From a bacterium (GTDB lineage: Bacteria; Planctomycetota; UBA1135; GCA-002686595), in NCBI GenBank assembly GCA_024226735.1, contig JAAELL010000327.1:1-64000 (forward strand): a DNA stretch of 64,000 nucleotides. Direction: 5' to 3'. Of the stretch, positions 31,138-32,592 are shown piece by piece (position 1 is the first letter of the stretch; each line of letters begins with the position of its first letter). The translations under genes were made by a program, and so were the position numbers. Under the pieces are notes generated by a model. The model was not told the DNA's origin. It saw nothing but the letters and a program-made list of their open reading frames with translations, and did not search any database.

Positions 31138-32592
31138 ATGAAGAAGCTCATGCTGCCGCTCATGGCTTTGGCACTCTCGGCGACGTCCACGGCCGGCGTC
31201 CAGGACGAGTCCGCCGTCGGTTTCGCCAAGGGGCGCTTCCTACCCGACCTCGAGCTGCCGACGATCGACGGCGAGCGCACCGTGCGGCTCTCGTCGCTGC
31301 GCGGCAAGAAGCTGCTGCTCGTGCAGTTCGCCTCGTGGTGAGCGGGTTGCCGCCAGCACGTGCCGGTCTGGCACGAGGCCCTGAAGGCCGCCCGCAAGCG
31401 CGACGACTTCGTGATGATCGGCATCACGCAGGAACAGCACCCCGACCGTTGCCGCCTCTACGCGCAGTGGCAGGGGATCGACTGGCCGATCCTGTGGGAC
31501 CCGTTCAACCTCACCGACAGCTACGCGGTGCCGATCTTCCTGGGCGTCGACGAGATCGGCTTCGTGCGCGAGCAGTTCCACGCGCGCAAGGGGCAGGAGG
31601 CGTTCGCGGCATTCCTCGACACGATGTACCCCGCGAATCAGGTGCCGCCCGCGGGCGTGCCACCGACGTTACAGGCGCAGACGAAGGAGGCTGCCCAGGG
31701 CCGTGGGTCGGCGCTCGCGCGCATGCTGTGGGGCGGTCACGAGGTCTACGACGAGGCGATCGAGGCGTTCACCGCCCGAGCCGTGGAGGGTGACGCGACT
31801 GCACGCGACAGCTTCGAGCTCGGCGTCGCGCTGCGCCTGCGCTACGACTCGCTGGCTTTCCGCCCCGCCGACTTCCAGGACTCGCTCGCCTCCTGGACTC
31901 AGGCTCTGACGATGCAGCCGCGACAGTACATCTGGCGTCGGCGCATCCAGCAGTGGGGGCCCGTGCTGGACAAGCCGTACCCGTTCTACGGGTGGGTGGC
32001 CGAGGCGCGGAAGGCGATCGAGGACCGTGGCGAGAAGCTACACCCCGTCGCGGTCGGACTCACCAGCTCCGAGCTCGCGCGCAAGTCGAACGAGATGCCG
32101 CCCGTGGGCGTGCGCGGCGTGAACCCCGATCCCGAGGGCAAGATCGAAGCGGATCCGGGAGCTCTCGTCCACATCGAGAGCGCGGCGGCGCTGCACACCG
32201 GCATCGCCGGGGGCCGCGCGCGCATTCCCGCCGGGACGGCGCGCATTCACGTCGCTCTGCGCCCGGACGTCAAACGAGACGTGCACTACTCGAACGAGGC
32301 GGGCCCGGTGCAGGTGTGGGTCGAGGTCCCGGAGGAGTGGCGCATCGACCGGAACCTCTTTACGGTCGCCGGACCGCCCAACACCGAGAGCTCGAGCGAC
32401 GTGCGCCGCTTCGATTTCGAGGTCGTCCCCCCGCTCGGTCCTCCGCCGGTCGGCGTGAAGTTGAAAGCCTTCGCGCTCTACTACGTCTGCGACGGCGAGG
32501 ACGGCCTCTGTGTCTATCGCCGGCAGGACTTCGAGATCCCGATCCCTCTCCCTGCGCTCGGTGGCCCGCCGGACACGGATGAAGGACGCTGA
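31138..32592 (+). CDS. Exported thioredoxin-like selenoprotein (UAGC active site)
   Basis: A single 484-residue frame if the TGA at 31339-31341 is read as selenocysteine. The signal peptide is MKKLMLPLMALALSATSTAG. The TlpA/AhpC-type domain follows: FLPDLELPTIDGERTVRLSSLRGKKLLLVQFASW, then U68-A-G-C71, then RQHVPVWHEALKAARKRDDFVMIGITQEQ. In relatives this position is the first Cys of CxxC, so Sec replaces a catalytic Cys. The rest of the chain has a TPR-like helical stretch and an Ig-like end with YYVCDGEDGLC. A hairpin with a GGTCT loop follows the TGA. If TGA were a real stop, the gene would be a 67-residue fragment lacking its active site. Confidence 0.85.
31342..31380 (+). promoter_or_regulatory. 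SECIS-like hairpin downstream of the Sec TGA (thioredoxin-like gene)
   Basis: CGTGCC-GGTCT-GGCACG (31359-31375) forms a perfect 6-bp stem with a 5-nt loop, and a lower 3-bp stem GCC/GGC is possible. The loop starts 23 nt after the TGA. The apical GGUCU is the loop of the E. coli fdhF SECIS recognised by SelB. A U lies four bases before the loop, where the bulged U of fdhF sits, but here it could pair. Confidence 0.7.

Follow-up and report, generated by a model that had tools for sequence, protein, structure and literature searches.

Among proteins of solved structure, ResA, TlpA and CcmG (DsbE) offer the nearest folds to the thioredoxin domain of the protein described here. They carry a CxxC motif in single small domains and are likewise exported via a signal sequence, while the new protein differs by a selenocysteine (Sec) and approximately 320 further residues. 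Several Sec-containing groups with related domains have been listed. The Prx-like thiol:disulfide oxidoreductase (PF00578, UxxC) is a known Sec class (PMC9312934); it is a broad class which, compared by description, shares the AhpC-TSA domain and the UxxC motif with our protein, and neither a TPR-like region nor a C-terminal cysteine-pair domain is described anywhere in that source. A 2026 review (PMC13188914) lists a "Redoxin family protein" (PF08534, UxxC, HEU0032618.1) with reference to GOS 2008 and ISME J 2016. Compared by table entry, domain family and UxxC motif are as in our family and, going by the table description alone, the two might overlap. For "Prx-like 3" of the GOS data (PMC2398784) 68 Sec forms are given next to 2,608 entries in the last column, apparently Cys homologs, a contrast, at the level of table entries, to our family, in which no Cys form turned up. 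The NCBIfam model NF041054 (WAxxUGC_long, ResA-like selenoprotein) and our family have in common the ResA-like thioredoxin domain, the position of Sec and a TPR-like region that follows the domain. NF041054 is likely identical to the "UGC-containing TlpA disulfide reductase" of the 2026 review; a literature search for "WAxxUGC" or ResA-like selenoproteins found no papers.

The gene analyzed here, termed TGA-68 gene, lies in a window of 64,000 nucleotides, the whole stretch of DNA under study (Table 1). Its frame holds one internal TGA, with 67 codons before and 416 after it, and ordinary ORF calling yields two ORFs. A first, sequence-only reading had joined these two same-frame segments to one protein of 484 residues, composed of a signal peptide, the active site FASW-U-AGC-RQHVP and a long downstream part. 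The frame was reread, and the junction as well as all sequence details were right. Relatives of the joined protein were found 38–52% identical over the whole length, on both sides of the TGA. Close pairs showed purifying selection on both sides, with dN/dS values of 0.11–0.24 downstream of the TGA in seven of them. Codon 68 was TGA in 140 of 140 loci (96 distinct sites) in the context [FWY]-A-S-W-U-x-x-C. The search pattern permitted any residue at this site; nevertheless, neither Cys nor TAA or TAG was found among the 140 loci, for which the GTDB share consists of the best 80 of 175 relatives. The conserved joined length, the low dN/dS downstream and the invariant TGA show that this is no chance event, in agreement with the earlier view that a random stop or sequencing error would be unexpected at precisely this codon. 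An error of sequencing or assembly might be suspected in a draft of 612 contigs, but independent projects yielded the same TGA at 140 loci, one of them in the complete Poly30 chromosome, which makes this explanation practically negligible. A cysteine or Sec column at position 68 of the homologs had been named as a supporting check. The Sec column was found; a mixture of Sec and Cys was not, the family being Sec-only among the loci read.

Table 1. Features of the TGA-68 gene and its product, with positions in the 64-kb window.
Feature	Position	Strand	Remarks
TGA-68 selenoprotein gene	31138..32592	+	484 aa from ATG 31138, TGA-68 as Sec (predicted); ordinary TGA stop 32590-32592
Predicted signal peptide	31138..31197	+	residues ~1-20; read from sequence MKKLMLPLMALALSATSTAG; low-confidence, unstructured in model
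Thioredoxin-fold domain, ResA/TlpA/CcmG-like	31234..31632	+	residues ~33-165; PF00578 39.8 bits, AlphaFold2 and Foldseek, PDB profile matches
TGA codon 68, predicted Sec, position of nucleophilic Cys	31339..31341	+	TGA in 140/140 loci; between strand 58-64 and helix 69-81
Cys71, resolving Cys of U-A-G-C (by homology)	31348..31350	+	invariant
Putative bSECIS hairpin	31359..31375	+	stem 31359-31364 with 31370-31375, apical loop GGTCT 31365-31369; covariation, RNAalifold
Helical TPR-like region	31702..32025	+	residues ~189-296; conserved YIWRRRIQQWGP motif; model, weak Pfam TPR matches
C-terminal Ig-like beta domain, DsbD-alpha-like	32161..32547	+	residues ~342-470; model, Foldseek, bridging family
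Cys451 of C-terminal pair	32488..32490	+	invariant in both alignments (A1, A3)
Cys458 of C-terminal pair	32509..32511	+	invariant in both alignments (A1, A3)

The relatives were collected from three sources. Within the order, 45 of 154 genomes contained a match; 43 of these had the TGA and the other two stopped short of codon 68. In a phylum sample of 392 genomes a relative was present in 42, with TGA wherever codon 68 was covered. Stop-free matches in both sets were considered as non-TGA forms and rejected as partial, since they end before codon 68. In GTDB species genomes 175 relatives were detected, and the best 80 of them were retained. The records are titled Planctomycetota, Acidobacteriota, Gemmatimonadota, Verrucomicrobiota and a few others, titles which for metagenome-assembled genomes are not always reliable. 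The Gemmatimonadota formed one group in a tree with 55 rows, in which the labels were clustered overall. One relative (L063) comes from an isolate, Planctomycetes bacterium Poly30, whose chromosome is complete.

All four genes of the Sec machinery, selA, selB, selC and selD, proposed earlier as a check, were present in the genome carrying the TGA-68 gene (8.99 Mb). The tRNA-Sec (selC) scored 74.6 bits, above the cutoff, and was called SeC with anticodon TCA by ARAGORN; further matches of the tRNA-Sec model turned out to be ordinary Gly, Tyr, Leu and Ser tRNAs by the same program. SelB reached 364 bits (cutoff 242), SelA 489 bits and SelD 330 bits. On contig C32, selC, selD and selA were all located inside 6 kb. 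The selD gene (L054, G000:C32:5076-6023) contains, by eye, one in-frame TGA of its own near the start in the context CAG-U-AAK, so SelD here is probably a selenoprotein too; the context resembles the UxxK form of SelD tabulated in PMC13188914. With selA in 139 of the 154 genomes of the order, an association of gene and selA tells little there, and it was therefore tested across the phylum. In the phylum sample selA was detected in 38 of 42 gene-bearing versus 204 of 350 other genomes (Fisher p = 1.3e-5, kinship uncorrected), and outside the order the association had a p-value of about 0.001 (kinship uncorrected). Gene-bearing genomes without detected selA numbered 4 in the phylum sample and 4 of 45 in the order, and their assemblies are incomplete. 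Decoding of TGA-68 as some other amino acid, by a reassigned code or near-cognate readthrough, would be compatible with the open frame alone. However, TGA serves as ordinary stop for the TGA-68 gene and for four of five neighbouring ORFs checked, which indicates that the code is not reassigned. Moreover, the tRNA-Sec has the TCA anticodon, the site is the Sec/Cys position of the fold and a putative bSECIS element follows. We regard this reading as highly improbable.

The element behind the TGA is a hairpin, CGTGCC-GGTCT-GGCACG, of 6 bp, which starts 17 nt past the UGA. Among 55 distinct sequences 96.7% of the hairpin cells were paired. Double changes were observed in 19 cells compared to 3.6 +/- 1.7 in shuffles, with none of 500 shuffles as high, and sliding the partner strand by one to three bases abolished most of the pairing. 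RNAalifold independently found the same six pairs. In one relative (L076) GTG/CAC is changed to GTT/AAC, keeping the stem while replacing His by Asn. Along the gene, synonymous conservation exceeds expectation most at codons 74–81, where the hairpin lies. According to PMC1088965, the apical loop of bacterial SECIS elements is small and includes a G; by its sequence, the hairpin fits this description. The Rfam model SECIS_1 (RF00031) matched neither here nor in the controls, and this null result is uninformative because the controls likewise went unmatched. A genuine stop at codon 68 would mean either a broken gene or two products, one of 67 aa and one translated from its own start further downstream. 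Ordinary ORF calling does give two ORFs, and GTG 31360 is a possible second start. Against this, all 140 loci had TGA at this codon and none had TAA or TAG, so that the real stop named earlier as refuting observation was seen in no homolog. Furthermore, a split would part the two catalytic residues of the thioredoxin active site, selection is purifying on both sides, the Sec machinery is present and a covarying hairpin follows the TGA. A real stop is thus very improbable. The earlier view of a likely selenoprotein has gained the invariant Sec column, the machinery and the covarying hairpin, and the TGA-68 gene almost certainly encodes one.

The protein reached the gathering scores of both AhpC-TSA (PF00578, gathering 26) and Redoxin (PF08534, 30.7 bits, gathering 26.6). 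An AlphaFold2 model built with 30 sequences had a pLDDT of 86.3 and a pTM of 0.87, and placed Sec68 directly before the first helix of the thioredoxin active site, the position that the nucleophilic Cys takes in this fold. Weak Pfam TPR matches were obtained for 9 of 30 members. No NCBIfam model takes in the family, NF041054 being nearest. The latter gave weak matches in all 30 members (best E 2.2e-23), with 55.4 bits for the TGA-68 protein, not reaching the cutoff of 300. It differs in its motif, which is U-G-C versus U-x-x-C in all 140 loci of our family. Judged from sequence, we place the TGA-68 family beside NF041054 as its sister; it was seen with Sec alone, has UxxC and carries the Cys-pair domain in addition. 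Two further loci of the phylum (L203, L205) encode NF041054-like proteins with WASW-U-GC, scoring 179–199 bits over part of the model (cutoff 300). Their middle region is similar to that of our family, while the N-terminal part is longer and the frames end without the Cys-pair domain. Their hairpin, CTGCC-CGGGT-GGCAG, is very similar and also occurs at two sites of the TGA-68 family. The class had been called not well described. This did not stand for UxxC proteins of PF00578 and PF08534 as such, which are known Sec proteins (PMC9312934, PMC13188914), but it stood for the long protein that ends in a Cys-pair domain, for which we found no earlier description. The protein would accordingly represent a new arrangement and not a new kind of system.

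The C-terminal domain was modelled separately with a pLDDT of 90.5; in this model C451 and C458 lie on neighbouring strands. The spacing of the pair is Cx5C or Cx6C in 94 of 96 distinct members and Cx8C in one more. Many chains of nDsbD (e.g. 6dnv, 6dps, 1l6p, 5nhi, 3pfu, 1jpe, 1jzd, 1z5y) were among the 50 best Foldseek matches. TM-scores ranged from 0.25 to 0.52, and other Ig-like folds score equally. The domain shares with nDsbD (PF11412) the Ig-like fold, the Cys pair on adjacent strands and a similar Cys spacing; it differs from DsbD in being fused to a Sec thioredoxin domain without the DsbD membrane part. At the sequence level PF11412 (DsbD_N) had no match in the TGA-68 protein and matched a few relatives weakly, below the cutoff, and the C-terminal profile, run against PDB sequences, found nothing usable. 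A link was provided by a bridging family from three genomes of the order, which matched the C-terminal domain with E-values of 3e-7 to 3e-6 and DsbD_N with E = 2.5e-5 (24.7 bits versus a cutoff of 25). By fold and, via this family, by sequence, the C-terminal domain shows a weak resemblance to DsbD-alpha. The bridging proteins (L198:1253-2590, L199:1252-2613, L200:1144-2487) consist of a deiodinase-like domain with an in-frame TGA (GCLT-U-VPF) followed by the same Cys-pair domain, so that this domain occurs fused to two different Sec thioredoxin-fold domains. They also carry EF-hand-like motifs and score far below the NF038285 cutoff. An isolated C-terminal domain that lacks the thioredoxin part, and seemingly also the first Cys, was observed at L196 (G005:C1:816525-816851), perhaps a gene remnant.

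Taken as a whole, these data make an exported Sec-dependent thiol-disulfide oxidoreductase with an internal C451/C458 relay moderately probable. Supported by sequence evolution, SelB and tRNA-Sec, guided by the bSECIS hairpin, would insert Sec at codon 68. By homology, Sec68 would act outside the cytoplasm as nucleophile in a thioredoxin domain of ResA/TlpA type, to be resolved by Cys71 through a selenylsulfide. The oxidoreductase assignment follows from UxxC at the nucleophile position of the fold. We infer that the Cys-pair domain is the thiol partner of the Sec site: the DsbD-alpha-like domain with Cys451/Cys458 would be built in to pass electrons to or from the U-C site. Such a two-step internal relay could reduce disulfides or peroxides of secreted proteins, with an oxidising role less likely. 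The TPR-like region would serve in holding the domains or in substrate binding. The relay is suggested by the invariance of C451 and C458, their position on neighbouring strands within the Ig-like domain, the nDsbD fold matches and the second Sec-domain fusion. Alternatively, the C-terminal domain may merely bind or support, with a structural C451–C458 disulfide, leaving catalysis as oxidoreductase or peroxidase to U68–C71 alone. The model matches Ig-like folds of many kinds, NPCBM_assoc matches more members than DsbD_N (12 versus 5 in Pfam), and both PF00578 and PF08534 include peroxidases. On the other hand, the Cys pair is invariant in a domain with a mean column identity of 35%, and the same domain accompanies another Sec thioredoxin-fold domain. 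We consider a purely binding or structural module possible, but less probable than the relay. For the relay, a conserved neighbour gene such as a CcdA/DsbD redox partner was searched by neighbourhood clustering of 43 loci and none was found, the recurring clusters being mostly overlapping frames of the TGA-68 gene itself.

A family seen solely with Sec and never with Cys suggests a chemistry that Cys cannot easily replace, and would lend itself well to testing why selenium is retained, with the Cys-pair domain as a concrete candidate redox partner within the same chain. Tentatively, the family may be an old one, spread over several phyla with no Cys form seen and carrying its own DsbD-alpha-like partner domain, in other words a selenium-based, self-contained relay of electrons in the bacterial cell envelope, whose partner domain was joined at least two times to different Sec thioredoxin-fold domains. 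Protein-level tests look feasible, given the relative in the isolate Poly30. The family is worth annotating; its members are probably truncated in databases, since gene callers cut at UGA and no NCBIfam model exists for it. Within the 64-kb window, no convincing further candidate was found among other TGAs in UxxC, CxxU or similar contexts. Elsewhere in the same genome, a second thioredoxin-like ORF with in-frame TGA (L010, G000:C231:25247-25687; DFWGFW-U-SPC-RGMIPH) was observed, by its sequence likely another UxxC selenoprotein. A third one (L013, G000:C75:1647-1946) reads DFWGDW-U-PPC-RAMYPH.
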